This document shows, piece by piece, positions 29,565 to 46,123 of a DNA stretch of 64,000 nt. The translations under genes were made by a program, and so were the position numbers. Under the pieces are notes generated by a model. The model had not been told where the DNA came from, did not search any database, and worked only from the letters and a program-made list of their open reading frames with translations. The stretch lies in contig NZ_JAESVA010000004.1 in NCBI RefSeq assembly GCF_020621385.1, positions 372,001 to 436,000 of the forward strand. The letters are read 5' to 3'. The DNA is from Acidisoma cellulosilyticum (GTDB taxonomy: Bacteria; Pseudomonadota; Alphaproteobacteria; Acetobacterales; Acetobacteraceae). Within the stretch, counting starts at the first letter, position 1. The number at the start of each line of letters is the position of its first letter.

Positions 29565-29667
29565 GATTGGCGCGCCGAAGCGAGATTGGCGCATCGGCGC
29601 GCTCCCTCAGGAACGCCGCGACCTATCGCAGCGCCGTTCTGTTCAAGATAGAGGATGACGGAACTTG

Positions 29668-30651
29668 ATGAAAAATCGCTTCCTTCAGGGTCTTCTGGCC
29701 AAGGCCGAACTGGGTCCGCTGATCCTGCTTATTGTCGAAATCGCAGTATTCGCATCGCTAAATAGCGATTTTATTTCGATTCTCAATATCAGCAATACGC
29801 TCGCCTTCACGGTGGAGCTCGGGCTGATCGCCCTGGCGATGACATTGTTGATGACGTCCGGCGAGTTCGATCTCTCCGTGGGTTCGGTCTTCGGTTTTTC
29901 CCCTGTCCTGATGTGGACGCTGGCCAATAGTGGTGCGACGTCACTGGTTGTGGCGTTCTTTGTCGCAATTCTGATCGCGGCCTTGATTGGCCTCATCAAC
30001 GGCTGGTTCGTAACACGCTTGAAGATTCCATCCTTCCTCGTGACCCTCGGCATGTTGCTGGTCGTGCGCGGCCTGGCGCTGTTCATGACCAATGGCTTTC
30101 CGCAGCGCACATGGAGTGCCAGCGGCGCCTGGCTGCCGCGAATCCTGGCCGGTGAGTTCTATATCGGCGACTTCAGGGTCTATGCGTCCATTTTCTGGTT
30201 TCTGGGTTCGGCGATCGTGCTTGGCTATGTGCTGACACGCACCAAGATCGGAAACTGGATTCAGGCCTCGGGCGGAAACCCGAATGCGGCGCGGGCGCGC
30301 GGCGTGAATGTCAATCGCACCAAAGCCGGCCTGTTTGTTCTTTGCTCTGTCATGTCTGCTCTTGCGGGAACTATCAGCTCGATCCGCACCTCTGCGGCAA
30401 ATCCTGACAGCGGCACCGGATACGAGCTTGAAGTCATCGCCATGGTCGTCATCGGTGGCACCGCGCTGACCGGCGGCCGGGGTACGATCGTCGGAACGGT
30501 CTTAGGTGTGCTTATCCTACGCATCATGCGCAATGGCATTGTCTTCGTCGGGGTGCCTGGACTCGCCTATAACATTTTCATCGGTGCGATCATCCTCGGC
30601 ATGATGGCTCTGCATTCGGGCCTGGAACGCCGCCACAATGCGGGAGCGTGA
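29668..30651 (+). CDS. ribose-type ABC permease
   Basis: The 327-residue RbsC-like membrane protein carries LLMTSGEFDLSVGSVFGF and ELEVIAMVVIGGTALTGGRG. ATG 29668 follows GAGGA; a TTG three bases earlier is also possible. The 103-base gap from the binding-protein gene contains GAGATTGGCGC twice (29563 and 29582, period 19), the first overlapping its last codons. The ATPase starts 3 bases after the stop. Confidence 0.9.
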   Translation: MKNRFLQGLLAKAELGPLILLIVEIAVFASLNSDFISILNISNTLAFTVELGLIALAMTLLMTSGEFDLSVGSVFGFSPVLMWTLANSGATSLVVAFFVAILIAALIGLINGWFVTRLKIPSFLVTLGMLLVVRGLALFMTNGFPQRTWSASGAWLPRILAGEFYIGDFRVYASIFWFLGSAIVLGYVLTRTKIGNWIQASGGNPNAARARGVNVNRTKAGLFVLCSVMSALAGTISSIRTSAANPDSGTGYELEVIAMVVIGGTALTGGRGTIVGTVLGVLILRIMRNGIVFVGVPGLAYNIFIGAIILGMMALHSGLERRHNAGA

Positions 30652-30654
30652 GAT

Positions 30655-31416
30655 ATGAGTGAACCCTTGATCCGTATGGAGCGGGTGAGCAAATCCTATG
30701 GACAGGTCAAGGCCCTGGCCGAGGCCAATCTGACCGTCGGCGAAAGCGAAATTATCGGTCTGCTCGGCGATAACGGCGCGGGAAAATCGACCCTCATCAA
30801 GGTATTGTCCGGCGCGGTTCCCTTGACGAGCGGAGAAATTTTTGTTCGCGGCCGTAAAGTCTCGTTCAAAAGCACCAGTGACGCGATCGCCCATGGGATC
30901 GAGACGATCTATCAGGATTCCGCGCTGGTGACGCAGCTTTCGATTGTGCGCAACCTGTTTCTGGGACGAGAGCCGCTGCGCCGTCCGCGCTTCTTAAATC
31001 AGATGGATCATGCCAAGATGGAAAGGGTGGCGCGCGATCTTTTGAAACGAGTGGGGATCAGCAAGGATATTCCGCCCAACACGCCGATCGGGTCCCTGTC
31101 GGGGGGAGAGCGTCAGTCGGTTGCCATCGCAAGGGCGATGTATTTCGAAAGCGACCTCATCATCCTGGACGAACCCACGAATAATCTTGGCGTCGCGGAA
31201 ACCAAGGGCGTTCTAAGCTTCATTCGCAGCGCCCGCGATTCCGGCCATTCCTGCATCTTCATCGCGCATAATATACATCACGTCTTTCAAGTCGTGGACA
31301 GGATCGTCGTCATGCGGCGTGGCCAGGTTGTGGCCGATGATATCGATCCTCGCCATACCAGCGTGGACGCGGTGGAGCGCGTGATTACCGGCATGTCCGA
31401 GGAGGAGGAGGGTTGA
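30655..31416 (+). CDS. ABC transporter ATP-binding protein, single cassette
   Basis: The 253-residue ATPase has Walker A GDNGAGKST, signature LSGGERQSVAIAR and Walker B LIILDEPTNNLG. It is a half-size relative of RbsA, like those of the xylose/fructose (FrcA) importers, so it must work as a dimer. It is third in the importer operon and convergent with the hypothetical gene that follows. Confidence 0.92.
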   Translation: MSEPLIRMERVSKSYGQVKALAEANLTVGESEIIGLLGDNGAGKSTLIKVLSGAVPLTSGEIFVRGRKVSFKSTSDAIAHGIETIYQDSALVTQLSIVRNLFLGREPLRRPRFLNQMDHAKMERVARDLLKRVGISKDIPPNTPIGSLSGGERQSVAIARAMYFESDLIILDEPTNNLGVAETKGVLSFIRSARDSGHSCIFIAHNIHHVFQVVDRIVVMRRGQVVADDIDPRHTSVDAVERVITGMSEEEEG

Positions 31417-32427: not shown

Positions 32428-34365
32428 CTAGAGGCCGATCTCCGTGATGTGCTTCTTGGCCCTGAGGATCGCGGCGGGGCTCATGCTCAACTCGTCCAGG
32501 CCCAGATCGATAAAGGTCTTGGTAAGGTCGAGATTGGCGGCAGCCTCCCCGCATATGGCAACCGGTATGCCGGCCGTCTTGGCGGCCGCGCAGATATGGG
32601 CAATGGCGCGCAAAACGGCGGGATGGTCGGCACGGTTCAACGATGCCACTTTAGGGTTCGTCCTATCGGCCGCCATAATATATTGCGTGAGGTCATTCGT
32701 GCCGATGGAAAAGAAGGCGGCTTCTTGCGCCAGCTCATCGGCCATCCAGGCAGCCGCCGGTGTCTCGATCATGATGCCGAGATCGAATTTGCCGTGGGGC
32801 TTGCCCTCGGCGGCCAGTTCGGCCGCGCAATCTCTGACAATCGCCTGAACAGCGCGCAATTCGCCGATATCGGCGATCATCGGGATCATGACTTTGAGGG
32901 AGCCTTGCGTCGCGGCCCTCAGCAAGGCGCGGATCTGAGGTTTGAAGACGTCCGGCCGGTCCAGGCACATGCGGACACCACGCCAGCCGAGAAACGGATT
33001 CTCCTCCTTTGGAAACTCAATCCCGGCGACCGGCTTGTCGCCGCCGATGTCGAGCGTGCGGACAACGACGTGATGCGGCGCGAAGGCTTGCAGCACCCGA
33101 CGGTAAACCGCTTCCTGATCGTCCTCGCTCGGCAAATGCCGCGCCTCCATGAACAGGAATTCCGTGCGGAATAGCCCGACGCCCTGTGCCCCTGCCTGTA
33201 ACGCCGGGCCGATATCGCGTTCGCCGCCGATATTGGCGGCAACCAGAACAGGGCGACCATCCTTTGTCTTGGGTGCGACCAGACGGTAGGCAGCGAGCGC
33301 TGCCTTTTCCGCAAGATCGCGGCTCAGATGGGCCAGCAAGGGTGCCGCGACCGCGTCGGTGGGGTCGAGCACAACTGTCCCGGTCTTGCCGTCCAGCCCG
33401 ACCCGGCGGGCTGCCTTGAGTGCCTCGACAGAGGCATTGCAACCGATGACAGCGGGGATGCCATGGCTGCGCGCAATGATGGCGGCATGGGACAGCGGCG
33501 TGCCCGCCCGAAAGACCAGGCCCGCGATATGCGAGAGATCGATCGTGCTCAACTCCCAGGCGCCAAGTTCATCGGCAAGGATAACGGAGCCTGGAGGAAT
33601 ATCGGCCAGTAATGGCTCTGTCTGACCTTGCAGCGCGAGCGCTACATTGCGCGCGACACTGCGAATGTCTTCGGCGCGAGCGCGAAGATAGGGGTCGGCA
33701 GCGACCTCGAAACGCTCTGCGATATCGCGTCCTGCGCGCATCGTTGCATTGACGGCGTCCATCCCGCCCTGAAGATGCTGTGCGATCTCTTCGTGGAACG
33801 CAGGGTCCGCTGCCACGTCGATCAGTGCCTGAACGATCGCCTCGGCCTCGCTGTCGGACCGCTGCCTTTTGGCCGATAAGCGATCGACCGTCACCTGCAC
33901 GGCGGCTTCATAGCGCTGAAGTTCCGCCGCATAGTCGATGCCGCCGGATACCAGCGCCGGCGCTGAGATATCGGCAGGGAAGAAGTGAAAGGCAGCGCCA
34001 AGCGCGATGCCGTCACTTGCCGGCGTCCCGCTATATTCCCCCAGGGCGGTAAGGGCAGGCGAGGACGGGTCGGCGGCCGGCGGAAGCGCCGATGGTGCTG
34101 CCGCCGGCGAAGTGTCAGAAACGAAGGCCGACAGGCATTGCAACGCTTCCGTTGCGTCGTCTCCGTCGGCATGAAGCGTAATCTCATCCCGTTCCTTGAC
34201 GCCGAGCAGCATCAGACGCACGGAGCTTTTGGCGTCAGCGCGTTTCCCCTGCCGCTCGATCTGGATCGAAGCTTCGAAACCGCGCGCCAGCCGGACGAAT
34301 TGGCTGGCCGGACGGGCATGCAGCCCTTCCGGCACATTCACCACAACCCTCTGCTCCAGATACAT
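32428..34365 (-). CDS. HPr - Enzyme I fusion of the phosphotransferase system
   Basis: The 645-residue cytoplasmic protein joins two PTS steps. Residues 1-88 are HPr, with phospho-His16 in GLHARPAS. An Ala/Pro linker follows (about 85-110), then Enzyme I with phospho-His293 in GTPLSHAAIIAR and the PEP-binding C-terminal domain (FLGWRGVRMC, IGTNDLTQY, AICGEAAA). It takes phosphate from PEP and passes it to the EIIA encoded 10 bases upstream. ATG 34365 is chosen because HPr begins there; the open frame runs into the EIIA gene. Having its own HPr-EI makes this sorbitol-type PTS self-sufficient, unlike the enteric srl system, which uses general EI and HPr. Confidence 0.92.
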   Translation of the reverse strand: MYLEQRVVVNVPEGLHARPASQFVRLARGFEASIQIERQGKRADAKSSVRLMLLGVKERDEITLHADGDDATEALQCLSAFVSDTSPAAAPSALPPAADPSSPALTALGEYSGTPASDGIALGAAFHFFPADISAPALVSGGIDYAAELQRYEAAVQVTVDRLSAKRQRSDSEAEAIVQALIDVAADPAFHEEIAQHLQGGMDAVNATMRAGRDIAERFEVAADPYLRARAEDIRSVARNVALALQGQTEPLLADIPPGSVILADELGAWELSTIDLSHIAGLVFRAGTPLSHAAIIARSHGIPAVIGCNASVEALKAARRVGLDGKTGTVVLDPTDAVAAPLLAHLSRDLAEKAALAAYRLVAPKTKDGRPVLVAANIGGERDIGPALQAGAQGVGLFRTEFLFMEARHLPSEDDQEAVYRRVLQAFAPHHVVVRTLDIGGDKPVAGIEFPKEENPFLGWRGVRMCLDRPDVFKPQIRALLRAATQGSLKVMIPMIADIGELRAVQAIVRDCAAELAAEGKPHGKFDLGIMIETPAAAWMADELAQEAAFFSIGTNDLTQYIMAADRTNPKVASLNRADHPAVLRAIAHICAAAKTAGIPVAICGEAAANLDLTKTFIDLGLDELSMSPAAILRAKKHITEIGL

Positions 34366-34375
34366 GCTGCCGTCC

Positions 34376-34756
34376 TCAGTTTTGGATGGTGATCTCGCGG
34401 CCGGCCTGCAGGAGTTCCGCCAGCGCTGCGAGATTGACTTCGGAGGCACAGAGTTCGCCCGGCCGCTCAGGGACATCCTCGCCATTGAAATTCACGACGA
34501 CATGGCCGATGTCGCGCACTTTCGCCCAGGCGTGATCACCGATACCGGTCAGGATGGCAGAGAGATCGCCGATCTTGAATTCTGCCCCCGGAACCGGTGC
34601 GTCGGGTGAGGGCTGTTCGACGATCCTGTGCAGCACGGAGACTTCAGCGAGTTCCGGCGGGGCGCCTTCGGCGAACAGGATCAGAATGCCGCCCTCCAAA
34701 AGCTCAAGTACTTCAGGTCCGACACTCGTGATTGTGCTGCGGAAGATGATGGACAT
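34376..34756 (-). CDS. srlB: PTS glucitol/sorbitol-family EIIA component
   Basis: The 126-residue cytoplasmic EIIA-Gut protein matches the family from the first residues (FRSTITSVGPEVLELLEGG) to the end, with the phospho-His most likely in VSVLHRIVEQ (about residue 43). It relays phosphate from the HPr-EI fusion to EIIB. It sits 12 bases after the EIIBC gene. The symbol marks the family only; the polyol handled may not be sorbitol. Confidence 0.88.
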   Translation of the reverse strand: MSIIFRSTITSVGPEVLELLEGGILILFAEGAPPELAEVSVLHRIVEQPSPDAPVPGAEFKIGDLSAILTGIGDHAWAKVRDIGHVVVNFNGEDVPERPGELCASEVNLAALAELLQAGREITIQN

Positions 34757-34768
34757 TGTCTTTGCCTT

Positions 34769-35761
34769 TTAGAGAGTGAGGCTGGCAAGCCAGGCGATCA
34801 GCACCGAGACCGGGCCCATCACCTGCCGGCTGATCAGAACAGCAGGCACACCGATTTCGATTGTCTTGGGTTTCGCTTCGCCCAGAGCGAGGCCGACCGG
34901 CACGAAGTCGCAGCCGACCTGGGTATTATAGGCAAACAGGGCCGGCAGAGCCATGGCGGGCGCCACAGTACCGTTCGCAATCTGCGGCCCGATGATCGCG
35001 ACGCCGATAACCTGGGCAATGACGGCGCCTGGCCCGAGGATCGGCGAGAGGAAGGGCAGGCCGCAGATGGCCGATAGAACCAGCAGGCCGAGGATGGTAT
35101 TGGCAAGCGGGCCCATCGGTGCCGCGAGAAGATTACCGATCCCGGTATAAAGAATAAGGCCGATCAGCATCGTCACGAAGGCCATGAAGGGCAGCACGTT
35201 ACGAATGACCTGATCGATCGTTCGCCGCCCCGCATTGAAGAAGATATTGACGATGCGGCCCATCACGCGTCCGATGACCGTGATCATATTGATCAGGGCG
35301 TTGCCGCCTTGGTCTTCTGGCATCGGGGCGGGGGCGGCTGCCTCGACCGGTGCGGCCGCCGTCGCGGCGGCGGCAATGGCGGAGCCATCGGCAAAGCTCA
35401 GATTGGCCTCTTTGACGCCCGAGACGTAAATATCCTCGGTTATGAATTGCGCCAGAGGTCCGGACTGCCCGACCGGCGTCAGATTGATGGTCGGGATACG
35501 TTTGCGCGGATAGACGCCGCAGCGTGCGGTGCCACCGCAATCGACGACGACGGCCGCGATCTCGCCTTCGACAGGCGGCGCGCGAAAGCCATCGACCGCA
35601 ATGCCGCCCGTCATTTCCGCCAAGCGGCGCGCAACGGCCGGAATCCCGCCGCCGGTGACAGCCACGATCTTGTCGCGTTGGCTGGTGGGCTGGATGATGA
35701 GCGGGCCACCCCAACCCGTATTGCCGCGCTCGACCCGGACGGCTTTATAGACCTTGTCCAT
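34769..35761 (-). CDS. srlE: PTS glucitol/sorbitol-family EIIB-EIIC2 component
   Basis: The 330-residue protein has an EIIB domain (residues 1-120) with the phospho-Cys in CGGTARCGVYPRKRIPT and the conserved LAQFITEDIYVSGVKE. A short Ala/Pro linker and a membrane EIIC half (about residues 175-330) follow. It phosphorylates the polyol as it enters. Organisation and length match enteric SrlE. It lies between the EIIC and EIIA genes with gaps of 21 and 12 bases. Confidence 0.92.
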   Translation of the reverse strand: MDKVYKAVRVERGNTGWGGPLIIQPTSQRDKIVAVTGGGIPAVARRLAEMTGGIAVDGFRAPPVEGEIAAVVVDCGGTARCGVYPRKRIPTINLTPVGQSGPLAQFITEDIYVSGVKEANLSFADGSAIAAAATAAAPVEAAAPAPMPEDQGGNALINMITVIGRVMGRIVNIFFNAGRRTIDQVIRNVLPFMAFVTMLIGLILYTGIGNLLAAPMGPLANTILGLLVLSAICGLPFLSPILGPGAVIAQVIGVAIIGPQIANGTVAPAMALPALFAYNTQVGCDFVPVGLALGEAKPKTIEIGVPAVLISRQVMGPVSVLIAWLASLTL

Positions 35762-35782
35762 GTTCTTTTCTTTCTCTGGGGC

Positions 35783-36550
35783 CTAGAGCACGACGCCTTG
35801 GCGGCGGGCCATGACACGCGTCACCCATTCCGTCATGATGCCCTTGAGCAGGATGACGACGACGCCGACGCCGAAGTAATAGATCGCCACAGTCACATGG
35901 AAATTGGGGGGGACTTTACCTTCCTTTTCCAACTGCAGCAGCGCCACAAGGACGCCGCCCCAGACGAAATACTCGCCCGGGTTGCAGTGAGGAAACAATC
36001 CGAGCGCCGGATGCACGAAGGATACGGCGCTGTCATAGAAGGCAGGCTTATACTTCTCGTCCAAAAACGTTCCGAACGTATAGGCCATCGGATTTGTCAG
36101 AAAGAACACGGCCAGGATGGGAAGGACCGTGTAGCGCGTCAGGGCGATCTTGCCGGCGAATCTTGCGATGCCATGGACCCTCTGCTCGCCGACGAATTCC
36201 GTGACCGCGTAGAAGGCGGTCATCAGCACGACCAAGGTCGGGATGATGCCGGTGACGAATCCTTCGAAAACTGATCCGCCTTTCTGGAAAACACCGATGA
36301 AGCCGGTTCCGATCGCGGTCAGCCAACCGAGATGCGCGCCCTGATTGGTCGGCAATGCCTGCACCCGCTCGGCATAGGTCTGCGCGGAGACGGGACCGCT
36401 GGGCGCCACTGTATTCGCATCTGCCGCGAGAATAAAACCGGTATGCCCGCCGGCAGCCGGGGCGCGAAGAACCCAATGCGCGACGGTATGGAGCTGATGG
36501 ACTGCCGGGTGCGCGAGCAAAAGACTGTCGTGAACTGCCATTATTGACAT
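35783..36550 (-). CDS. srlA: PTS glucitol/sorbitol-family EIIC component with N-terminal extension
   Basis: From about residue 74 the protein follows EIIC-Gut (FIGVFQKGGSVFEGFVTGII, NPMAYTFGTFLDEKYKP, LFPHCNPGEYFVWGG). The first 70 or so residues, His/Ala-rich with AANTVAP-like sequence (HTVAHWVLRAPAAGG, then VAPSGPVSAQ), have no counterpart in the 187-residue enteric protein. AGGAAA precedes ATG 36550, supporting that start. The gene follows gutM by 56 bases. The extension could alter substrate choice or contact with EIIBC. Confidence 0.88.
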   Translation of the reverse strand: MSIMAVHDSLLLAHPAVHQLHTVAHWVLRAPAAGGHTGFILAADANTVAPSGPVSAQTYAERVQALPTNQGAHLGWLTAIGTGFIGVFQKGGSVFEGFVTGIIPTLVVLMTAFYAVTEFVGEQRVHGIARFAGKIALTRYTVLPILAVFFLTNPMAYTFGTFLDEKYKPAFYDSAVSFVHPALGLFPHCNPGEYFVWGGVLVALLQLEKEGKVPPNFHVTVAIYYFGVGVVVILLKGIMTEWVTRVMARRQGVVL

Positions 36551-36606
36551 TTTTTGTTTCCTGGACTGCCCTGATCAATGTTTCTTTTTATTGTTTTGTC
36601 CAGCAA

Positions 36607-37053
36607 TCATGCCGGGCTGGTCACCGTTGGCGTCATCGGTTTTACCAGTGCGTTTCCACTCGCCTCCGCATTGCGGGTGGCGCGTCGGATCTGCGCGATT
36701 GCGCCCGCAATCGCCTTGAACCGCGCCCGCTTTAGTTGTTCGCTGGTCAAGGTTTCCAGCGTGCTCAGCGATGAGCCGCAGAAATCCGGATAGCTTTTGA
36801 ATTTTGCAAAAACGCTTCGACCCTCCATGACGTGAACGTCGCGGATAATCTCATCCGGGGATGCGACGACAATCGCTATGACCCCTTTGCCAAGATAACC
36901 GCGGACGGCGGAAGCGCCCAGGCTGCCGTCGGGCCATTTTTCCCCGATATCGCGCATGATTGTTCGGTAGTGGCGCATTTGCACCCATGTTCCCACAACC
37001 TGGAGCGCCCAGAATATTGCAAGGGCTATCAGTCCCTTTGCCCAAAATGCCAT
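36607..37053 (-). CDS. srlM: GutM/SrlM-like glucitol operon activator
   Basis: The 148-residue protein has an N-terminal membrane helix (AKGLIALAIFWALQVVGTW), the segment MRHYRTIMRDIGEKWPDG and the conserved GKGVIAIVVASPDEIIRDV typical of GutM, an accessory activator of sorbitol PTS operons. ATG 37053 is chosen: AAGGA lies upstream, and family homology starts at the helix. It is first in the PTS operon. The C-terminal 40 residues are rich in Arg/Ala and poorly conserved. Confidence 0.8.
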   Translation of the reverse strand: MAFWAKGLIALAIFWALQVVGTWVQMRHYRTIMRDIGEKWPDGSLGASAVRGYLGKGVIAIVVASPDEIIRDVHVMEGRSVFAKFKSYPDFCGSSLSTLETLTSEQLKRARFKAIAGAIAQIRRATRNAEASGNALVKPMTPTVTSPA

Positions 37054-37151
37054 CCGCCCTGTTCCTTCTTGCCCAGTTGACCGGAATGGGTTCAGCATGC
37101 CGATCCGCAGGGGCCCGTTCGTTGCGAGCATTATTCCTTCAGGTAACGAGA

Positions 37152-37180
37152 ACAGTACAATTGACTGAGGGAAAGTCAAT
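37152..37180 (-). promoter_or_regulatory. inverted repeat and promoter in the divergent polyol control region
   Basis: ATTGACT (37160-37166) and AGTCAAT (37174-37180) form a perfect 7-base inverted repeat with a 7-base spacer. Read on the minus strand, TTGACT (37174-37179), a 16-base spacer and TACTGT (37152-37157) give a reasonable promoter for the gutM-PTS operon, with the repeat covering its -35. A good candidate site for the SorC or LacI regulator encoded downstream. Confidence 0.45.
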
Positions 37181-37279
37181 ATGTTCTGATCCCCTTGAGG
37201 TAAAATGTTGCGGGCAGACCTCGCCAAGGGGCGATCGCCGGGTTAAGGCGTGGGAAAAGACGCGAGAATGGGAAGCGCA

Positions 37280-37948
37280 ATGGCCAAGGAATTCTCCAAG
37301 GAGTTCATGCATGAGCCGGATCTGGCCCATCGCCTGCGCCGGCTGCATTTTTTTGACGAGCATTTCTGCGGTCATATGGACGCGCTGGCAGCAAGACTCG
37401 GTCTGTCGGTCACCATCGACCGTCTGAAATTGACGGACGCCTTTCTCCGCTGGGGGGAGGATTTTAACCGGCAACGCAATCTTGCCAGCGTGAACCGGCG
37501 TGACTTCATGGTGTTTACCGCCGGAACCCTGCTGGCTCATCTGGTCGAGGCTCAGCCGGTCTCCGTGCAGCAGAAATCGCAATCCAGTTTGACGGAAGCG
37601 CCCGATGACGAGGTGCAGAAGATCATCGCCTTTTGGCCGGAGGGATTTCTGTACACCACCTATTGCATCAGCGTTCTGCAGACCGTGATCGAGCAGGACG
37701 AAAAACAGGCGCTGCCGGTGTCGGAAATCGCGGGGGACTTGCGCAATTGGTGGTCATTTCGGGAAAATGTGCGGGAAGATCGTTGGAATGCGATCGGATT
37801 TTTCGATCTCTTCGTCGGTGCTGAGCCTAACTGGGCCGCGCCGGCCATCGCCGCCCATCGTCCGGCCATGCGGGCCAAGCCCAGACCCGTGATGGATAAG
37901 CAGGGGCCTTCCGCGCTCGTCGAGAAGGACCATAAAAAAGAACATTAA
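37280..37948 (+). CDS. hypothetical protein, first gene of the oxidoreductase/dehydrogenase operon
   Basis: About 222 residues; I do not recognise the family. It is soluble, with several Trp and aromatic residues in the second half (FWPEGFLYTTYCISVLQTVI, NWWSFRENVREDRWNAIGFF) and a charged, Lys-rich tail (EKDHKKEH). Start uncertain: ATG 37280 has GGGAAG upstream; ATG 37268 and GTG 37250 are in frame. It lies divergent from gutM and 90 bases before the DRL-like gene, so it is probably co-expressed with the pathway, perhaps as a regulator or accessory factor. That role is guesswork. Confidence 0.6.
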   Translation: MAKEFSKEFMHEPDLAHRLRRLHFFDEHFCGHMDALAARLGLSVTIDRLKLTDAFLRWGEDFNRQRNLASVNRRDFMVFTAGTLLAHLVEAQPVSVQQKSQSSLTEAPDDEVQKIIAFWPEGFLYTTYCISVLQTVIEQDEKQALPVSEIAGDLRNWWSFRENVREDRWNAIGFFDLFVGAEPNWAAPAIAAHRPAMRAKPRPVMDKQGPSALVEKDHKKEH

Positions 37949-38038
37949 TCTTGACCGAGAGACAAAAGTACATAAACTCGGCCAGCAACAACGCCCCCAG
38001 CGCAAAACGGCGGGCGAGCCTGGTCCGGGAGAGCACCA

Positions 38039-39361
38039 ATGAACGCAATTGCACCGGTTTCTTTAGCTGCGGAGATCGCGGCCTATGCGACGGCCAATGG
38101 TCCGATCACGATCGGCCTGGCTGGCACCGGGCAGATGGGCACGGATATCGTCGTGCAACTATCACTGATGCCATCCGTCAGATTGGGGGCCATTTCGGAG
38201 GTCCGACCGGATCTGGCGGTCAAGGCATTGTCCATGGCGGGTCGGGATCCCAGCCAGATCAAACATGCGGATAGCGCATCCGCGATCGACCATGCCATCG
38301 AAACGGGTCAGGTCGCGATTACGGATGACTATCGCGCGCTATGCGGCAGCGGTCGGATCGATGTCGTGATCGATGCGACCGGCAATCCCAATGTCGGCAC
38401 CCTTATCGCTTTGGAAGCCATGCGCCAGGGCAAGCATGTCGTCATGCTCAATGTGGAAGCGGACATCACGATCGGCCGTTTCCTGAAAGCCGAGGCGCGG
38501 CGTCACGGTGTGGTTTTCACGGGCGCCGCCGGCGATGAGCCCGCCGCCACGCTCGAAATCATCGGGTTTGCGCAATCGCTCGGGCTGGACATTGTCGCTG
38601 CCGGCAAGGGCAAAAATAATGCGCTCAACTTCAATGCCATGCCGGAGGACTACGAGGAGGAGGCGCGCAACCGCAATATGGCGGCGCGCATGCTCGTCGA
38701 ATTCGTCGACGGATCAAAGACGATGATTGAGATGGTGGCGGTCGCAAATGCCACTGGCCTGGTCCCGGATGTGCCGGGCATGCATGGGCCGCGCGCGACG
38801 CGCGAGGAGCTGGCCGGCGTTCTTTGTACGAAGGAAGACGGCGGTATTTTGTCCAAGGCCGGTGTGGTCGACTACTCCATTGGCAAAGGTGTGGCACCGG
38901 GTGTCTTTTGCGTGGTCAAACCGCGTCACCCGCGTATTCTGGAACGGATGATCGACCTCAAGGTCGGGCCCGGTCCCTGCTTCACGATCTTCCGGCCCTA
39001 TCATCTGACGAGCATGGAAGTGCCGCTATCCGCCATCCGCGCGGTAATGCGTGGGCGTCCGGATATGGAGCCGTTGGATGCGCCGGTGGCGGAGTGTACG
39101 GCTCTTGCCAAGCGGGATCTGATGGAAGGTGAGACTCTCGGCAAGATCGGTGAACGCGATTATCGTGGCTTTGCCATGACATGGGCCGGTGCCAGAAAGG
39201 CCAATGCCCTGCCGATCGGGCTTGCCGAACAAGCAACCGTTCTGACGTCGATCAAGGCTGGTGAACAGCTTACCTACGAAAATTGCCGGCCGGATGTCTC
39301 GCTGTCCGTGACCCAGATCCGGCAAAGGCAGGATCAGCTCGACTCTGTCTTCATCGTCTGA
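38039..39361 (+). CDS. SAF-domain NAD(P)-dependent oxidoreductase, DXR-like (DRL) family
   Basis: The 440-residue protein has a homoserine-dehydrogenase-like Rossmann domain (IGLAGTGQMGTDIV, about residues 25-38; VIDATGNPNVGT). The catalytic domain contains FTGAAGDEPAATLEIIGFAQ and AGKGKNNALNFNA, and a C-terminal SAF domain spans about 355-420 (ALAKRDLMEGETLGKIGE). This architecture is that of the DRL proteins, first described in Brucella, where one replaces DXR by converting 1-deoxyxylulose 5-phosphate to methylerythritol 4-phosphate. Assignment to that family is from memory and moderately sure. It starts an operon with an acetoin-dehydrogenase-type complex, opposite a polyol PTS. That suggests the reverse, catabolic direction: branched polyol phosphate to an acyloin phosphate. 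Confidence 0.72.
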   Translation: MNAIAPVSLAAEIAAYATANGPITIGLAGTGQMGTDIVVQLSLMPSVRLGAISEVRPDLAVKALSMAGRDPSQIKHADSASAIDHAIETGQVAITDDYRALCGSGRIDVVIDATGNPNVGTLIALEAMRQGKHVVMLNVEADITIGRFLKAEARRHGVVFTGAAGDEPAATLEIIGFAQSLGLDIVAAGKGKNNALNFNAMPEDYEEEARNRNMAARMLVEFVDGSKTMIEMVAVANATGLVPDVPGMHGPRATREELAGVLCTKEDGGILSKAGVVDYSIGKGVAPGVFCVVKPRHPRILERMIDLKVGPGPCFTIFRPYHLTSMEVPLSAIRAVMRGRPDMEPLDAPVAECTALAKRDLMEGETLGKIGERDYRGFAMTWAGARKANALPIGLAEQATVLTSIKAGEQLTYENCRPDVSLSVTQIRQRQDQLDSVFIV

Positions 39362-39376
39362 GCGGGAGACAAGAGC

Positions 39377-40432
39377 ATGCAAGACATGGTCGAGGCATCA
39401 AGCGCCTCTCCTGATATCATTCCCGATATCTCTCCGGGGCTTATCGGCAATTTGCCTGAGATCTATCGCCGCTTGTCGCGTCCGGCGCTTCATGAGGCTT
39501 TGCGGAAAATGCAACTTGTGCGGCGTTTTGAGGAAAATGCCGAGCAGGCCTATATGCGGGGGCTTATTCACGGCACGATGCATTTGTCCATCGGCCAGGA
39601 GGCATCAGCGATCGGCGTCTGTGTCGCCCTCACGGACAGGGACTATATCACCTCGACGCATCGTGGACATGGGCATTGCATCGGCAAAGGCGCCGAGATC
39701 GGCCGCATGTTCGCGGAGTTCTTCGGGCGTGAGACGGGTTATTGTCGTGGCCGCGGTGGGTCGATGCATATCGCCGATCCGTCGAAGGGCAATCTGGGTG
39801 CCAATGGCATCGTCGGTGGTGGCATTCCTATTGCGGTGGGTGCGGCACTTTCGGCCAAGCGGCTTGGCACGGGTGCCGTGTCCTTGTCCTTCTTCGGCGA
39901 CGGGGCCAGTAACGAAGGCGCATTCCACGAAGCGCTCAACATGGCGTCCATCTGGAAACTGCCGGTCATCTTCATTTGTGAGAACAACCAATACGGCATG
40001 TCGACATCGACCGAGCGATCGATGGCCGTTAAAAATGTGGCCGATCGTGCGGCGTCTTATGGCATGCCGGGCGTGATCGTCGACGGCAACCGCTTCGCCG
40101 AAGTCGCTGCCGCCAGTTTTGATGCGGTCGAGCGGGCAAGGCGGGGAGATGGGCCGACGCTGATCGAGTGCAAGACTTATCGCATCCGCGGCCATTCCCG
40201 CAGTGACCGCAACCGTTACCGCACGAAGGAGGAGATCGAATCCTGGCAGGAACGGGATCCGATCAAGCTCTTTCAGACCGAATTGCGGAATTACGGCCTC
40301 ATTGAGGATAGCGAGATCGCATCGATCCAGACCTCGGTCGAGGAAGAGATCAAAGCAGGCCTCCAATTCGCCAGCGACAGTCCTTTGCCTTCAACTATGG
40401 ACGTGACCCGTGACGTTTATACCAGCGTCTGA
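39377..40432 (+). CDS. acoA: TPP-dependent dehydrogenase E1 alpha subunit (acetoin/pyruvate type)
   Basis: The 351-residue subunit carries the thiamin-diphosphate motif [15 protein letters not shown] ending in ENNQYGMS, the active-site [11 protein letters not shown] and the phosphorylation-loop region [15 protein letters not shown]. With E1 beta it performs the thiamin step of a 2-oxo-acid or acetoin dehydrogenase. GGGAG precedes ATG 39377, 15 bases after the oxidoreductase stop, and its end overlaps E1 beta by 23 bases. The hydrolase-fold E2 downstream favours the acetoin type over the pyruvate type. Acyloin substrate unknown. Confidence 0.88.
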
Positions 40433-41444
40433 AAAAATTCTCGATATCGGCAATCCGGACCGCGAGCTGAGCTATTCGCAAGCGATCCAGGAAGCGATGG
40501 CCTTGGCGATGGAAGCCGATCCTCGGGTCATCCTGATGGGTGAGGATATCGGAACCTATGGCGGCGCGTTCCAGGTAACCGGAGATCTGATCCATCGTTT
40601 CGGCGAGGATCGTGTCATGGACACGCCCATCTCGGAACTGGGCGGGGCCGGTGTCGCGGTCGGCGCGGCATTGACGGGTTTGCGACCTATCTTCGAGTTC
40701 CAGTTTTCGGACTTCGCGACGCTCGCCATGGAGCAGATCGTCAATCAGGCCGCCAAGCTGCGCTATATGCTGGGCGGCGCGGTCTCGGTTCCCTTGGTCA
40801 TGCGGTTTCCCGCGGGTTCAGGGACGGGGGCTGCCGCGCAGCATAGTCAAAGCCTGGAAGCCTGGCTGGCGCATGTGCCGGGGCTGAAGGTCGTGCAACC
40901 GGCGACGCCCTATGACGCGAAGGGGCTTCTTCTGGCCGCGATCGCGGATCCTGATCCCGTGATGATTTTCGAGCATAAGCTGCTCTACAAAATGAAGGGC
41001 GCCGTTCCTGAAGGTCATTACACGGTGCCGCTCGACAAAGCAGAGATAAGGCGCGCGGGACGGGACCTCACGATCGTCGCGACATCCATCATGGTGCATC
41101 GCGCATTGGATGCGGCTGCGGCTCTGGCGGAGGAGGGGATAGAGGCGGAGGTGATCGATCTTCGCTCTCTCCGCCCGATTGACACGGCGACCATCGTGCA
41201 AAGCGTCAAGCGAACGCATCGGTTGCTTTGTGTCTATGAGGGGGTCAAGACGCTCGGCATCGGTGCAGAGGTTTCAGCGGCCATCGCGGAAAGCGAAGCG
41301 TTTGATTTTCTCGACGCGCCGATTGCGCGCCTTGGCGGCGCGGAGGCGCCACTTCCCTATAATCCGGAGCTTGAGAAGGCATCGGTGCCGCAGGTTCCCG
41401 ATATTATCGTGAGCGCTCTTGCGCTGGCGCAGGGTCGGCTCTGA
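40410..41444 (+). CDS. acoB: TPP-dependent dehydrogenase E1 beta subunit
   Basis: The 344-residue transketolase-like beta subunit has [36 protein letters not shown] and [20 protein letters not shown]. It starts at GTG 40410 inside the end of E1 alpha (23-base overlap), so the two are made in equal amounts. The next gene starts on the last base of its stop codon. Functional tetramer with E1 alpha expected. Confidence 0.88.
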
Positions 41445-42817
41445 TGGCGACCGAAGTCATCATGCCCCGTGTCGATATGGACATGGCGAGCGGGCGAATC
41501 TCGCGCTGGTATGTCGAGGAAGGGGTCCGTGTCGAGGCCGGGCAGCCGCTATTCGAGATCGAGACGGATAAGGCGGCGATGGAGATCGAAGCACCGAGCG
41601 GCGGCATATTGCGTAAGCTGCCACTGGCGGATGGTGCGGAAGTGTCCGTGGGGAGTGCTGTCGGTTGGATTTGCGCACCGGATGAGATGCTGCCGCAGAA
41701 CCAGCCTGAAGCTCAGCCTGAAAAGGCTTTGCCTGATGAGGCCTCGGCGATTCCACAGACACAAGGCCCTTCCAGCGAGGCGGCGGCGAAAGAGCCGGCG
41801 TCCGATCGTCGTTTTGTCACCGCGACCCCATTGGCGCGGCGTATTGCCGCCGGTTACGGCATTTCGCTCGCGACCGTGCAAGGAAGCGGACCCAGGGGGC
41901 GCATTCAGGCCCGTGATGTCGAGCGTCTGGGAGCAAATGGCTTCGACCACGCGCAAGGGTCACAAGATCCGGCAAGCGTTCCGATCCTGTCTCGGGACAG
42001 CGACAGCGACAGGCCGGTCGATAGAATCATAGAACCGCCCATCGCGACGCCGGCGGATTTGCCCCATGGCGCCTGGCTGCGTAAAGGCGAGGGACCGCCT
42101 GTTGTGCTCCTCCATGGCTTCGGTGCCGATCTGAATTCCTGGCGGCTTATGCTGGGGGTCATCGCGCCATCGCGTTCGGTTTTTGCGATCGACCTTCCTG
42201 GTCATGGCGCTTCGCCGGCTTTGCCGCGGCCGGATCTGCGATCTCTCGCGGATGCCGTTGCGGCGAGGCTGGCGGCCGAAGGCCTGTCGAATATCGATTT
42301 GGTCGGGCATTCCCTGGGTGGCGCGGTCGCCACCGAACTCGCGGATATCGGCACGGTCGGCGTGCGGTCTTTGTTCCTCATCGCGCCGGCAGGGCTGGGT
42401 CCGGAAATCAACGGCGCGTTTATCGCGGGCTTGGCGCGCGCGACCTCGGAGGCAAGTCTCGCGCCCTGGCTGCGACTTCTCGTCGATGACGGTGATGTAT
42501 TGACCCCGAGTTTTATTCGCAGCACGGCAAGACAGCGTGAAGACCGGGGCATAATCAAAGCACAGACAGATCTTGCGGCCGCCATGTTTCCAGACGGCAC
42601 GCAGGGATTCTCGATCCGCGGCGCCATGGAGCGTCTTGATATGCCGGTCCGTCTGGTCTTCGGCACGAATGACCGCATCATTCCACCCGGTCATGCGATG
42701 CACCTGCCGCCCTTGGCGGCTGTACATCGGCTGCCTGGCGTCGGGCATATGCCCCAGCTTGAAAGCCGGGCGATGTTAGGGCGCATCCTGGCCCATCACC
42801 TGCATGATGGTCGATGA
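41444..42817 (+). CDS. acoC: E2 component: lipoyl domain, E1/E3-binding domain and alpha/beta-hydrolase fold (AcoC type)
   Basis: The 457-residue protein starts with a lipoyl domain (Lys43 in ETDKAAME carries lipoate). Next come an acidic/Pro linker, a peripheral-subunit-binding domain (about 123-160; ATPLARRIAAGYGIS) and an alpha/beta-hydrolase fold (about 205-457) with VLLHGFGAD, nucleophile Ser290 in VGHSLGG and a His in GVGHMPQLE. The hydrolase fold in place of the usual acyltransferase core is the hallmark of acetoin dehydrogenase E2. It takes the acetyl unit from an acyloin and gives acetyl-CoA. Enteric-like AcoC lacks the binding domain, so this is a fuller version. No E3 gene is nearby. 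Confidence 0.88.
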   Translation: MATEVIMPRVDMDMASGRISRWYVEEGVRVEAGQPLFEIETDKAAMEIEAPSGGILRKLPLADGAEVSVGSAVGWICAPDEMLPQNQPEAQPEKALPDEASAIPQTQGPSSEAAAKEPASDRRFVTATPLARRIAAGYGISLATVQGSGPRGRIQARDVERLGANGFDHAQGSQDPASVPILSRDSDSDRPVDRIIEPPIATPADLPHGAWLRKGEGPPVVLLHGFGADLNSWRLMLGVIAPSRSVFAIDLPGHGASPALPRPDLRSLADAVAARLAAEGLSNIDLVGHSLGGAVATELADIGTVGVRSLFLIAPAGLGPEINGAFIAGLARATSEASLAPWLRLLVDDGDVLTPSFIRSTARQREDRGIIKAQTDLAAAMFPDGTQGFSIRGAMERLDMPVRLVFGTNDRIIPPGHAMHLPPLAAVHRLPGVGHMPQLESRAMLGRILAHHLHDGR

Positions 42818-42916
42818 CGGGCAGGCGCGGGTCCCCCACCCGATTCCCGGGCAAGCGATCCTGTGCAAGGGCGGGCGTTTGCGCCGAGAGGCGAGCCAGT
42901 GAAGGCGAGGCCGGCT

Positions 42917-42946
42917 GGATTATTCGGACCTCATCCTAGATAATCC
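42917..42946 (+). promoter_or_regulatory. inverted repeat before the SorC gene
   Basis: GGATTAT (42917-42923) and ATAATCC (42940-42946) are perfectly inverted, with a further GGA/TCC pair inside. The element ends 16 bases before the SorC start, in the only sizeable gap of the plus-strand operon. It could be the regulator's own operator or an attenuating hairpin. Confidence 0.4.
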
Positions 42947-42962
42947 GGGCAGGCTTGCATGG

Positions 42963-43994
42963 TTGGGACGTATTGTGGGTAGAGATAATCGGGCGCGTCC
43001 GGATTCTGCGAAAGCCGAGTTCGGTGAAGGCCAAGGTACCAGCGGCCGCAGGTCGGCGCGGCTTCGCCTGCGCGCCGCCTGGATGTATTACGTCGAGGAG
43101 ATGACGCAAAATGCGATAGCCGAGGCGCTCGGCGTTGGCCGCGTGACGGTCGTGCGGCTTCTCAGTGATGCCCGTGCCTTGCATGAGGTGAAGATATCTC
43201 TGCGCCGTGACATTGCGGAACTGACGGGGCTGGAACTTGCATTGCAGCAGCGCTTTGGCCTGGCTGAGGCCGTTGTCGCACCGCTGTCGTCTGGCGACGT
43301 GGATCCGACTGCGGCGATCGGCGCGGCAACGGGCCAATATATATCGGATTTCATCACATCGAATATGCTGGTCGGTGTCGGCTGGGGACGAACGCTTCTG
43401 AAGGCTCTCGGCTTTATCGATGAGAAGCCGCTGTCGAACGTCGCGGTGGTGTCTTTGCTCGGTGGCATTTCTTCCGTGCGTCAATACAATCCCGCCGAAT
43501 TCGGATGGCAGTTTTCCCGCGCCTTTGGCGCCGATTGTTTCCAGATCGCGGCGCCCGCTATCGTCGATAGCGAGCAAACAAAGAATGTGCTCGTTGACCG
43601 TTGTGGCGTGGGGGCCATTTTCGACCTGGCGCAATCTCTCGACGTCATCCTGGTCAGCGTCGGCGGCATGAATCCTGATGCGACGTCCTATCTGTTCGGG
43701 CATTTCTCGGCCGAGGAGCGTCAGACTTTAATCTCAAGAGGTGCGGTCGGAGATCTGCTTTACAATTTCTTCGATAAGGATGGCCAGATCATCGATCATC
43801 CCATTAATTCACGCATCATGAGCGTGCCGATCGACACTTTGGTCAAGACGCCCCGGCGCATTTTAACATCCGGCGGGGCTGCCAAAGTCGATGCCATCCT
43901 GGGTGCCATGACCCTCATCAAACCCAATATTTTTATTACGGACGAGATTACCGCTGGCCTGCTTTTAAACGAAAATGTTGCGAATAAAAAATGA
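42963..43994 (+). CDS. SorC/DeoR-type sugar-binding transcriptional regulator
   Basis: The 343-residue protein has an N-terminal helix-turn-helix (MTQNAIAEALGVGRVTVVRL, about residues 47-66). A SorC sugar-phosphate-binding domain follows, with VGVGWGRTLLKAL, DCFQIAAPAIVDS, VGDLLYNFFDKDG and a C-terminal ALGAMTLIKPN-like ending (ILGAMTLIKPNIFITDE). SorC relatives sense phosphorylated sugars or polyols. It starts at TTG 42963 or GTG 42975. It is last in the oxidoreductase-dehydrogenase operon and probably controls that operon and the divergent PTS. Confidence 0.9.
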   Translation: MGRIVGRDNRARPDSAKAEFGEGQGTSGRRSARLRLRAAWMYYVEEMTQNAIAEALGVGRVTVVRLLSDARALHEVKISLRRDIAELTGLELALQQRFGLAEAVVAPLSSGDVDPTAAIGAATGQYISDFITSNMLVGVGWGRTLLKALGFIDEKPLSNVAVVSLLGGISSVRQYNPAEFGWQFSRAFGADCFQIAAPAIVDSEQTKNVLVDRCGVGAIFDLAQSLDVILVSVGGMNPDATSYLFGHFSAEERQTLISRGAVGDLLYNFFDKDGQIIDHPINSRIMSVPIDTLVKTPRRILTSGGAAKVDAILGAMTLIKPNIFITDEITAGLLLNENVANKK

Positions 43995-44005: not shown

Positions 44006-45085
44006 TCAAAGGGTTGCAAGAGTGGCGGCATCCGGTGCTGAACCTGGGATGGTCGCACGCCAGATCAACGGACCGGGAATAGGACGGTCAAGGCCAAGTT
44101 CGATTCCAGATCCGGGATCGTCTAAATGTAGAAGTTTCAATGTCTCAGTTATCATCGCGTCGAGAGGCTGCTCGATCGTTGTCAATTGATACGGGAGACG
44201 TCCGCTTTCGGGAATGTTGTCAAAGCTCGCTACCATGATGTCAGTCGGAACCGACAGACCATAGCTATGTGTCATGACGTCCATAGCGCCCATCGCCATG
44301 ATGTCATTGATACAAAAAAGCGCGTCAGGCAAAGGCGCTTTGCGATCTTTCAATAGTTTTTGAATGGCGATGACGCCACCGTCATAGGTCGAGAAGCCTT
44401 CGGCGGTTTCAATATCTTGTGGCCGGACACCCGATTCCCGCAACCTTTCTACGAAACCGCTGATGCGATCATGGCTGGTTGTCGCGCGTGCTTCACCGGC
44501 GATCATCGCGAAGCTTTTTGCCCCCGCCCTCAACAGGCATTCGGCCAGCACACGTCCGCCCGCAGCATTATCGCATCTCACGCATGAGGCGTCGCTTCCC
44601 GGGACATAGCGATTGAAGAAGATAATCGGGATGCCGCGCTCATGGCTCAATCCGGTCATGCGCATCGAGAGCCTGGCTTGGGTCACGATTATGCCATCGA
44701 CCTGATATTGCAATACGCGCATCATGACAGCGTCGGTATCGTCGTCCGGCCCCGCCGTGAAGGCCAGGATCTGACGTCCCTCGGCCTGAAGCCGCTCGCT
44801 GAAAGCATGCAGCATGCGAACGTAGAACGGGTTCTTTAGATCCCCGATGATCAGCGCGATGATATTGCTGCGGCGCGTGGTGAGGCTGCTCGCAATGGAA
44901 TTGGGCACGTAGTTCAATTTGCGCGCGGCCTCGAAAATCTTTTGCCGCGTGTCCTCCGAAATATTGGAGCGCTTGCTGAAGGCACGTGATACCGAGGATT
45001 GCGAAACGCCCGCCAGCGCCGCCACGTCGAAGGACGTCACGCGTGGTTGGGGGACAGCGTGCTTCGGGCGGGTCACCTGATCCAT
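44006..45085 (-). CDS. LacI-family transcriptional regulator
   Basis: The 359-residue repressor has a helix-turn-helix (SFDVAALAGVSQSSVSRAFS, about residues 18-37), the hinge helix (LNYVPNSIASSL) and a sugar-binding domain (IALIIGDLKNPFYVRMLHAF; FCINDIMAMGAMDVM; VASFDNIPES). ATG 45085 is chosen over an in-frame TTG at 45094. Its stop lies 11 bases from the convergent SorC stop. It follows the HapK-SDR pair after a 200-base gap, so it may be separately transcribed and regulate module D or E. Confidence 0.9.
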   Translation of the reverse strand: MDQVTRPKHAVPQPRVTSFDVAALAGVSQSSVSRAFSKRSNISEDTRQKIFEAARKLNYVPNSIASSLTTRRSNIIALIIGDLKNPFYVRMLHAFSERLQAEGRQILAFTAGPDDDTDAVMMRVLQYQVDGIIVTQARLSMRMTGLSHERGIPIIFFNRYVPGSDASCVRCDNAAGGRVLAECLLRAGAKSFAMIAGEARATTSHDRISGFVERLRESGVRPQDIETAEGFSTYDGGVIAIQKLLKDRKAPLPDALFCINDIMAMGAMDVMTHSYGLSVPTDIMVASFDNIPESGRLPYQLTTIEQPLDAMITETLKLLHLDDPGSGIELGLDRPIPGPLIWRATIPGSAPDAATLATL

Positions 45086-45286
45086 GACAGCCAAGCCTTC
45101 TGCGACAGGTCAAACACGCTAAGCAGCTCCACGATCAATCCTTGTCGATCCGGCGACCGTCCAGTCACCGGGTAATGTCAGGGGTGGGAAGCGGCATTTC
45201 ACCACCTTTCCAGTCGGGCAGCATAGCCCAACCTGACCCTCGGCGCGACTGGTCAGCCGAATGGGTCAGCGGAGCGGTCCAGGCGG

Positions 45287-46123
45287 TCAGTGATATTCCT
45301 CGCCGCCCGAGACATTGAGAGCCTCGGCGGTGATGTATCCGGCCGCATCCGAACAGAGAAAAGCGACCGCATCAGCCATATCCTCCGGCTTGCCGAGACG
45401 GCCGAGCGGAATGCGCCGCCGCATCTCGCCCAAGTATTCGTCCATGCTCTGCCCGCGCGCGGATGACATGAACTGGTTCTGCCAGGCGCCAAGGCCGGTC
45501 GTGACATGGTTGGGGCAGATGGCGTTGACCGTGATGCCGTAGGGGCCCAATTCCAGCGCGGCTGCCCGTGTGAAACCCACGACGCCATGTTTCGACGCCG
45601 TATAGGCCGTCGCGAAGGCGAAGCCGGATTTCCCGGCCTGGGAGGCGATATTGATGATCCTGCCCCCGCCCGCCTGTCGGATCATGTGATTGGCGGCATC
45701 CCGCGTGGCCAGGATCATAGCGCGAAGATTGACGCCGAGTACGGCGTCCAGGTCCGAGGCCTTCATCTCCGTCAATGGACCGAACAGATAGCCGATCCCG
45801 GCGTTATTGACGAGAATATCGATACGTCCGAAGCGCGCCACGGTCTTTTCGACAATCGCGGTGATGGCGTTTTCCTGCAGAAGGTCGCCGGTCACGGCGT
45901 CGACATCGGCACCAGCCGCCCGCAGGTCCTCGCACATCGCATCAAGATCGGTCTGCGTGCCGACACCATGGGCGGGCGCGATATCCCCCTCCACAGCGCC
46001 GCGATCATGCAGCATGACGGCGACGCCATCGCGCGCCAGGCGCCGCGCTATGGCCTGCCCCAGCCCGCCCTTGCGTCCGGCGCCGGTGATCAGCGCTACT
46101 CTCGCCGTCCCGGCCGGCATCAT
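45287..46123 (-). CDS. SDR-family oxidoreductase
   Basis: The 278-residue short-chain dehydrogenase has the nucleotide loop ALITGAGRKGGLGQAIARR, NNAGIGYL, active-site Ser in IINIASQAGKSG and YTASK (Y-x-x-x-K). It reduces or oxidises an alcohol/ketone with NAD(P). An insertion (DRGAVEGDIAPAHGV) follows the first strand. It overlaps the HapK-like gene by 4 bases, so the two act together. Substrate unknown. Confidence 0.9.
   Translation of the reverse strand: MMPAGTARVALITGAGRKGGLGQAIARRLARDGVAVMLHDRGAVEGDIAPAHGVGTQTDLDAMCEDLRAAGADVDAVTGDLLQENAITAIVEKTVARFGRIDILVNNAGIGYLFGPLTEMKASDLDAVLGVNLRAMILATRDAANHMIRQAGGGRIINIASQAGKSGFAFATAYTASKHGVVGFTRAAALELGPYGITVNAICPNHVTTGLGAWQNQFMSSARGQSMDEYLGEMRRRIPLGRLGKPEDMADAVAFLCSDAAGYITAEALNVSGGEEYH

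Follow-up and report, generated by a model that had tools for sequence, protein, structure and literature searches.

The first steps of isoprenoid synthesis by the methylerythritol phosphate pathway, catalysed by DXS and DXR, start with a decarboxylative synthesis from pyruvate and proceed through 1-deoxy-D-xylulose 5-phosphate (DXP) and 2-C-methyl-D-erythritol 4-phosphate (MEP). DXR-II, or DRL, of Brucella (PDB 3UPL, 3UPY) has been described in the role of MEP synthesis for isoprenoids. The srl/gut operons for the glucitol/sorbitol phosphotransferase system (PTS) encode IIA, IIB, IIC and GutM, and AcoABC operons encode E1α, E1β and an AcoC-type E2 alongside acetoin or butanediol dehydrogenases. 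Acetoin dehydrogenase cleaves an acyloin that is a methyl ketone, yielding acetyl-CoA and an aldehyde. Relatives of all of these components lie together at positions 32428–43994 of a 64,000 nt stretch of the Acidisoma cellulosilyticum genome (6.0 Mb in 59 contigs), namely positions 372,001 to 436,000 of contig NZ_JAESVA010000004.1, here called the window. A minus-strand PTS block (32428–37227) is divergent from a plus-strand block (38039–43994) that starts with a DXR-II gene (Table 1). The locus differs from srl/gut operons in having DXR-II and E1–E2 genes adjacent and an HPr–enzyme I (HPr-EI) fusion of its own, and from AcoABC operons in that the complex is coupled to DXR-II and a PTS. Its DXR-II is of the same family as the Brucella enzyme but sits in a PTS and E1–E2 cluster, in a genome that also has DXR-I.

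We propose that the genes of this cluster serve the catabolism of 2-C-methyl-D-erythritol (hereafter methylerythritol), and put the probability of this at about 0.72. That DXR-II takes part in the catabolism of some branched polyol has a higher chance than methylerythritol as the substrate. The glucitol PTS would import methylerythritol and phosphorylate it to MEP, with the HPr-EI fusion proposed as its private phosphoryl donor, and DXR-II would oxidise MEP to DXP. The thiamine enzyme made up of E1α and E1β would attack the ketone of DXP and cut between C2 and C3, freeing glyceraldehyde 3-phosphate; the two-carbon unit would pass via the lipoyl E2 to acetyl-CoA, and a shared E3 would reoxidise the lipoyl group with NAD+. 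The SorC regulator would control the operon, and we propose that it senses a sugar phosphate of the pathway. The route would use the same two intermediates as the entry to the MEP pathway, but in reverse and with an oxidative E1–E2 cleavage to acetyl-CoA. We infer the substrate, the direction of the reaction and the products of E1–E2 from the sequence. Pyruvate and acetoin dehydrogenases are said, in the title of one study, to form 1-deoxyketoses, and the Salmonella sorbitol PTS reportedly transports methylerythritol (Testa et al. 2004, as titled). Purified pyruvate dehydrogenase has been described as making deoxyxylulose from pyruvate and glyceraldehyde, and the cleavage proposed here would involve the same carbon bond in the opposite direction. 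The sequence-only reading of the window had arrived at this pathway, and it is now supported by the clade in which its DXR-II lies, by a separate DXR-I and by recurrence of the gene set.

The DXR-II in the window is 52.2% identical (225/431 residues) to Brucella 3UPL, and those from related clusters in Agrobacterium, Sinorhizobium, Aminobacter and Nitratireductor share 71.9–73.5% identity with 3UPL. A quick tree of 75 rows was followed by a careful one from which four long-branch rows (L192, L178, L177 and L184) were left out. In the careful tree, 3UPL falls in an 8-row clade (support 100/97) with six E1–E2-linked rows and one row without E1–E2. The window protein is in a 34-row clade (100/97) composed of 20 E1–E2-linked, 13 lone and one unclassified row, where its closest sister group is weakly supported (57/75). 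Five outgroup rows labelled DLO, our own assignment based on low identity and a missing Thr229, are on one side of a branch with 100/100 support. The label lone means that the fetched stretch, rather than a full annotation, holds no PTS, kinase or E1–E2 query gene, and rows marked unk are unannotated; lone rows L159–L165, L174, L183, L191 and L196 were re-inspected. 3UPL has L183, a Phyllobacterium DXR-II with no E1–E2 beside it, as its closest row, followed by four that are E1–E2-linked. The protein that had been read as DRL-like from the sequence is, then, inside the DXR-II clade with a biochemically verified enzyme and apart from its DLO relatives.

Ten positions are listed as key DXR-II residues (121, 174, 178, 191, 193, 229, 250, 320, 322 and 351 in Brucella numbering; PMC3847144), and all ten are the same in the window protein and 3UPL. 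The same is true of 29 of the 30 E1–E2-linked proteins, the window's included, and the exception is a single position in Priestia. Thr229, Lys191, Lys193, His250 and Arg320 are conserved in 67/67 non-DLO rows. Thr229, which a passage of the same paper (PMC3847144) says helps to anchor fosmidomycin, is found in all of these, four Bacillota rows among them, and in 0/8 DLO rows. By the sequence tests run, the window oxidoreductase belongs to the DXR-II family and is predicted to interconvert DXP and MEP. Two of the DLO relatives (L177 9001–10263 and L184 4980–6287, from Persicobacter and Deinococcus), which share approximately 36–37% identity with Priestia DXR-II, adjoin genes for dTDP-4-dehydrorhamnose 3,5-epimerase and have a CDP-glucose dehydratase or glucose-1-phosphate cytidylyltransferase gene nearby, a hint of nucleotide-sugar chemistry.

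A canonical DXR-I, which the sequence-only reading had proposed looking for, is encoded elsewhere in the A. cellulosilyticum genome (PF13288, E 1.6e-39; PF02670, E 3.9e-38), which contains one DRL_cat gene. As DXR-I is encoded elsewhere, the window DXR-II is not the only DXR of this genome, and that explanation was ruled out. Of 17 other genomes with DXR-II, E1α, E1β and E2, 16 have a further DXR. This is DXR-I in five (L003, L005, L006, L009 and L014, the last from an Acetobacteraceae bacterium), an N-terminal DXR-I fragment in one (L012, Pseudoroseomonas cervicalis) and a second DXR-II, 55–71% identical to the window protein, in ten (L002, L007, L008, L010, L013, L015–L018 and L020). DXR-I was searched for with PF13288 in all 17, and PF02670 was run on six genomes, including L011 (G403) and L012 (G404). 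G202 and G404 were taken as one genome because their DXR-II is in the same place, as were G302 and G406, and each was counted once.

The same gene set was found in other genomes, one of them from another phylum; the sequence-only reading had proposed looking for it there. Among the best 80 of 110 DXR-II relatives, a selection biased toward near relatives, E1α, E1β and E2 are together at 17 loci and partial sets at none, at the thresholds used (E <1e-20; E1 identity >50%). Glucitol IIB was within the fetched stretch at 14 of the 17, and none of the 80 loci has IIB without E1. At L017, HPr-EI sits at the edge of the stretch, so the PTS may lie beyond it. A PfkB relative is additionally present at six of the 17. 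Two loci were kept outside the 17: L004, which is broken by contig ends and retains GutM, orf6, DXR-II and the start of E1α, and L081, where an E2-like match is weak (36%).

Across lineages, the import module varies and the DXR-II–E1–E2 core is kept. The PTS form was found in Terrarubrum and Nitratireductor. Plasmids of Agrobacterium, Sinorhizobium meliloti Rm41 and Rhizobium sophoriradicis carry a sugar ABC importer and a sugar kinase of PfkB or another type, together with SorC, DXR-II, E1α, E1β, E2 and E3, and have no PTS within the stretch; the Agrobacterium and S. meliloti Rm41 clusters also include lipoyl synthase. The Shinella cluster consists of SorC, DXR-II, E1, E2 and E3, and that of Aminobacter of DXR-II, E1 and E2 next to importers with amino acid and polyamine annotations. 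PTS, ABC and FGGY kinase genes occur together in one genome, G124. The Bacillota evidence is from four plasmid loci (L118, L119, L176 and L185). A Priestia plasmid contains, in approximately 16 kb, HPr, IIA, IIB, IIC, GutM, E1α, E1β, E2, E3, two SorC regulators, an MFS carrier, DXR-II and an FGGY kinase. The combination of a phosphorylating importer, or an importer and a kinase, with DXR-II and an acetyl-CoA-forming complex points to a phosphorylated DXR-II substrate and a methyl-ketone product, as MEP and DXP are. A gene for a HAD-family hydrolase (L180 12867–13553), which is absent from the window cluster, recurs in the DXR-II–E1–E2 clusters of L002, L005–L008, L010, L013, L015–L018, L020 and L114, and its product could remove dead-end sugar phosphates.

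An order-level sample of 395 genomes was drawn twice, for DRL_cat and for IIB, with sameness judged from the genome handles. Glucitol IIB was present in 8/395 genomes, and DXR-II proper in the same eight. DRL_cat was matched in 165 genomes and not in 230. No DXR-II was found at E 1e-70 in the 142 other DRL_cat-positive genomes searched, with 15 weak DRL_cat genomes outside this search, and as a control the same query matched 31/31 genomes elsewhere. In seven of the eight, IIB and DXR-II share a contig and are separated by a few kilobases. In the eighth, G124, GutM-IIC-IIB-IIA-HPr-EI opens one contig and DXR-II-E1-E2 opens another, and a contig break may divide the PTS from the DXR-II genes. 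The probability of drawing identical sets of eight among 395 by chance is 7e-17 when kinship is ignored. In a class-level sample of 385 genomes, IIB was found in the window alone and DXR-II in three genomes, two of them without IIB. Given this co-occurrence and the recurrence across phyla, the gene set is not a chance grouping.

The 22 alphaproteobacterial DXR-II-linked rows in the E1α tree, the window included, form one clade (100/99). E1α from the acetoin-type loci L187, L188 and L189 and a further E1α from the A. cellulosilyticum genome (L123) make up a second (100/99). That genome has eight E1α matches, of which three besides the window's were included in the tree. The window E1α does not group with those of acetoin/butanediol operons; it scores under the pyruvate dehydrogenase equivalog cut-off (379 vs 393.85), and its NCBIfam matches include no acetoin equivalog, so the acetoin label rests on E2. 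The description of the complex as of acetoin dehydrogenase type thus stands for E2, which passes the AcoC equivalog cut-off, and does not extend to E1α. As the window E1 is related to the acetoin group but outside it, a dedicated E1 substrate would fit. The window cluster holds no E3 gene, and lpd was not searched for elsewhere in the genome; among the related clusters, those of Agrobacterium, Sinorhizobium, Rhizobium, Shinella and Priestia include lpdA. A Clostridioides difficile plasmid (L186 8016–13936) carries SorC, E1α, E1β, E2 and E3, with an E1α that shares 59% identity with its counterpart in the Priestia DXR-II cluster and no DXR-II annotated in the fetched stretch.

Several observations weigh against methylerythritol catabolism as we propose it. 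The DXR reaction is reversible but favours MEP, so the reverse reaction would need a pull from E1–E2, and a literature search for equilibrium data on the reverse DXR reaction found none. The eight genomes with IIB and DXR-II belong to five genera of one family and are not independent, and Priestia E1α falls firmly in neither E1α clade and outside the alphaproteobacterial DXR-II-linked group. Neither DXR-I nor a second DXR-II was found in one metagenome-assembled genome (MAG) with the cluster, L011. An FGGY kinase is present at 36/80 loci, more than carry E1–E2. No PTS, kinase or E1–E2 query genes were found around DXR-II in two alphaproteobacteria, G605 and G609, in stretches of 17.5 and 5.1 kb. 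In Listeria and Enterococcus, DXR-II is accompanied by a PTS and no E1–E2 in the fetched stretch. A Ligilactobacillus salivarius plasmid (L119 9001–16575) has DXR-II, a glucitol PTS, GutM, a regulator, a fructose-6-phosphate aldolase (FSA-type) and a transketolase in a row, the last two in place of E1–E2. Clusters of the Mesorhizobium type (L022 9947–19272, L037 and L113) combine DXR-II with an FGGY kinase, SorC, a ribose-type ABC importer and two short-chain dehydrogenases/reductases (SDRs), and no E1 was found in them. As these related loci, which the sequence-only reading did not mention, are without E1–E2, other substrates or other product fates are possible: either DXP exits by other routes or the substrate differs.

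The second of these would apply if the same architecture served another branched polyol, such as methylthreitol, apiitol or hamamelitol, with DXR-II producing a linear ketose phosphate that is taken on by E1–E2 or by pentose-phosphate enzymes. The transketolase and FSA-type aldolase beside DXR-II and the glucitol PTS in Ligilactobacillus fit a ketose with a normal C1, and the importers and kinases vary among loci. However, on chemical grounds an acetoin-type E1–E2 would suit a methyl ketone, such as would arise from a 2-C-methyl polyol, whereas the ketose phosphate arising from a hydroxymethyl polyol would have no need of E1–E2, and the substrate-binding residues are identical to those of a verified MEP-forming enzyme. 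We consider another polyol unlikely for the window cluster.

Less probable is isoprenoid salvage, in which the PTS would import methylerythritol or deoxyxylulose, DXR-II would be a spare MEP-forming DXR and E1–E2 would be unrelated. The DXR-II family has been described, in the relevant passages of PMC3847144, as an isoprenoid enzyme. However, methylerythritol phosphorylated by the PTS is already MEP, so no DXR would be required; a further DXR is present in the window genome and in nearly all of the others with the cluster; and an unrelated complex would not be expected beside DXR-II as regularly as E1α-E1β-E2 is, at the 17 loci and in Priestia. The least probable explanation is that DXR-II lies by accident in an operon for the ordinary use of sorbitol or acetoin. 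Although IIB, IIC and E2 exceed curated sorbitol or acetoin equivalog cut-offs, glucitol IIB was found among the 395 genomes solely in those with DXR-II, the Terrarubrum, Nitratireductor and Priestia stretches have no annotated sorbitol-6-phosphate dehydrogenase (srlD was not the subject of a dedicated search), none of the 25 NCBIfam matches listed for the window SDR (45287–46123) passes its cut-off, and E1α is apart from the acetoin clade into which L123 of the same genome falls; plain sorbitol and plain acetoin operons were set aside on the IIB/DXR-II co-occurrence and the E1α clade.

Returning to methylerythritol degradation, we see even odds that DXR-II is fundamentally catabolic and belongs to a widespread pathway of this kind, fed by a glucitol PTS or by an importer with a kinase, and that the isoprenoid role known from Brucella is secondary and arose more than once where DXR-I was lost. 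PMC3847144 raises the question of DXR-II evolution in strains that have DXR-I as well, and also mentions two strains that have DXR-II but neither isoprenoid pathway; its passages on neighbours and operons do not discuss gene neighbourhood. A catabolic DXR-II would explain both its presence beside DXR-I and its presence in strains without the MEP pathway. On the careful tree, the lone label needs four changes, and the lone rows from Aurantimonadaceae lie within the 34-row group that holds E1–E2-linked rows; together with one Rhizobiaceae MAG row (L077) they form a single clade (97/99). The lone Mesorhizobium rows, which count somewhat against recruitment from the catabolic type, are beside and not inside the clade of 3UPL and E1–E2-linked rows. 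No DXR-I was found with PF13288 in three Mesorhizobium genomes; in each, one DXR-II belongs to a SorC-ABC-SDR cluster that includes an FGGY kinase, and another is lone. These placements suggest more than one switch between DXR-II roles, in a direction that depends on the root. Lone DXR-II from Aurantimonadaceae (L019, L056, L067, L069, L070, L078 and others) deviate from the cluster type at position 178 and/or 322, and those of Mesorhizobium at position 121. Three lone Aureimonas DXR-II (L165, L174 and L196) have a transketolase-like gene approximately 4–5 kb away, whose product is 45–46% identical to the Ligilactobacillus one.

Table 1. Genes of the putative methylerythritol catabolic cluster of A. 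cellulosilyticum (positions in the window)
Product	Position	Strand	Evidence
HPr–enzyme I fusion	32428..34365	-	PF00381, PF05524, PF00391, PF02896; TIGR01417 461 bits (cut-off 341.7)
Glucitol-family PTS IIA	34376..34756	-	PF03829 81.2 bits; under NCBIfam gutA cut-off (68 vs 189.55)
Glucitol-family PTS IIB	34769..35761	-	PF03612, PF07663; NF049924 435.8 bits (cut-off 400)
Glucitol-family PTS IIC	35783..36550	-	PF03608; NF049923 181.2 bits (cut-off 150)
GutM-like protein	36607..37227	-	PF06923 66.6 bits (cut-off 25)
orf6, conserved cluster protein	37250..37948	+	between GutM and DXR-II; relatives in related clusters
DXR-II (DRL family)	38039..39361	+	PF21135 DRL_cat 210.2 bits (cut-off 27); 3UPL E 1.5e-143
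E1α, thiamine-diphosphate dehydrogenase	39377..40432	+	PF00676 305.5 bits
E1β	40410..41444	+	PF02779, PF02780; NF006667 393.7 bits (cut-off 321)
E2, AcoC type	41444..42817	+	lipoyl, E3-binding and alpha/beta-hydrolase-fold domains; NF011457 (acetoin dehydrogenase E2) 385 bits (cut-off 307)
SorC-family regulator	42963..43994	+	PF04198 182.8 bits

All of the genes named in the sequence-only reading are present, as judged by Pfam and NCBIfam profile matches (Table 1). The glucitol PTS is complete in its IIA, IIB, IIC and GutM domains, and the curated NCBIfam cut-offs are passed by IIB and IIC and missed by IIA. The layout that had been described needed correction in two respects. First, HPr-EI overlaps IIA solely if the first ATG is used: the longest frame extends to 34485, but the LHARPAS motif of HPr follows Met-41, and as the HPr domain begins right behind this methionine, 32428–34365 is likelier to be the gene. 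Second, orf6 had gone unmentioned. Its product has no Pfam or NCBIfam match, and an all-helical model (pLDDT 80.3, pTM 0.76) returned 0 fold matches in the PDB at E <=0.001. The orf6 family has invariant Trp/Arg/Glu motifs and adjoins DXR-II-E1-E2 elsewhere, including on the Agrobacterium and Nitratireductor plasmids. The cluster is flanked by genes for a sugar ABC permease and ATPase (29665–31416) on one side and by a LacI regulator, an SDR and a small protein (44006–46434) on the other. Their order is not repeated among PTS-type loci, and they look like pieces of other sugar operons.

All of the protein families involved are known, and the pathway that they would form is not described in the literature searched. 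No methylerythritol degradation route was found in these searches, which covered open-licence full texts, and in a search on the biodegradation of 2-methyltetrols the term surfaced merely inside a cited reference. Plants are reported to accumulate methylerythritol and its glucosides (in a passage of PMC11192765), and 2-methylerythritol has been measured in isoprene aerosol (in passages of PMC5559486 and PMC10458846). Bacteria on leaves, in soil and in the air should therefore be able to encounter methylerythritol. If our reading is correct, the bacterium feeds on a branched sugar alcohol that is made by plants and is also formed in forest air, and there would be a biological sink for plant methylerythritol and for the 2-methyltetrols of isoprene oxidation. 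DXR-II that coexists with DXR-I, and seems superfluous there, would gain a function. The anabolic entry step of the MEP pathway would have a natural catabolic reverse, by which carbon from that pathway could return to central metabolism.

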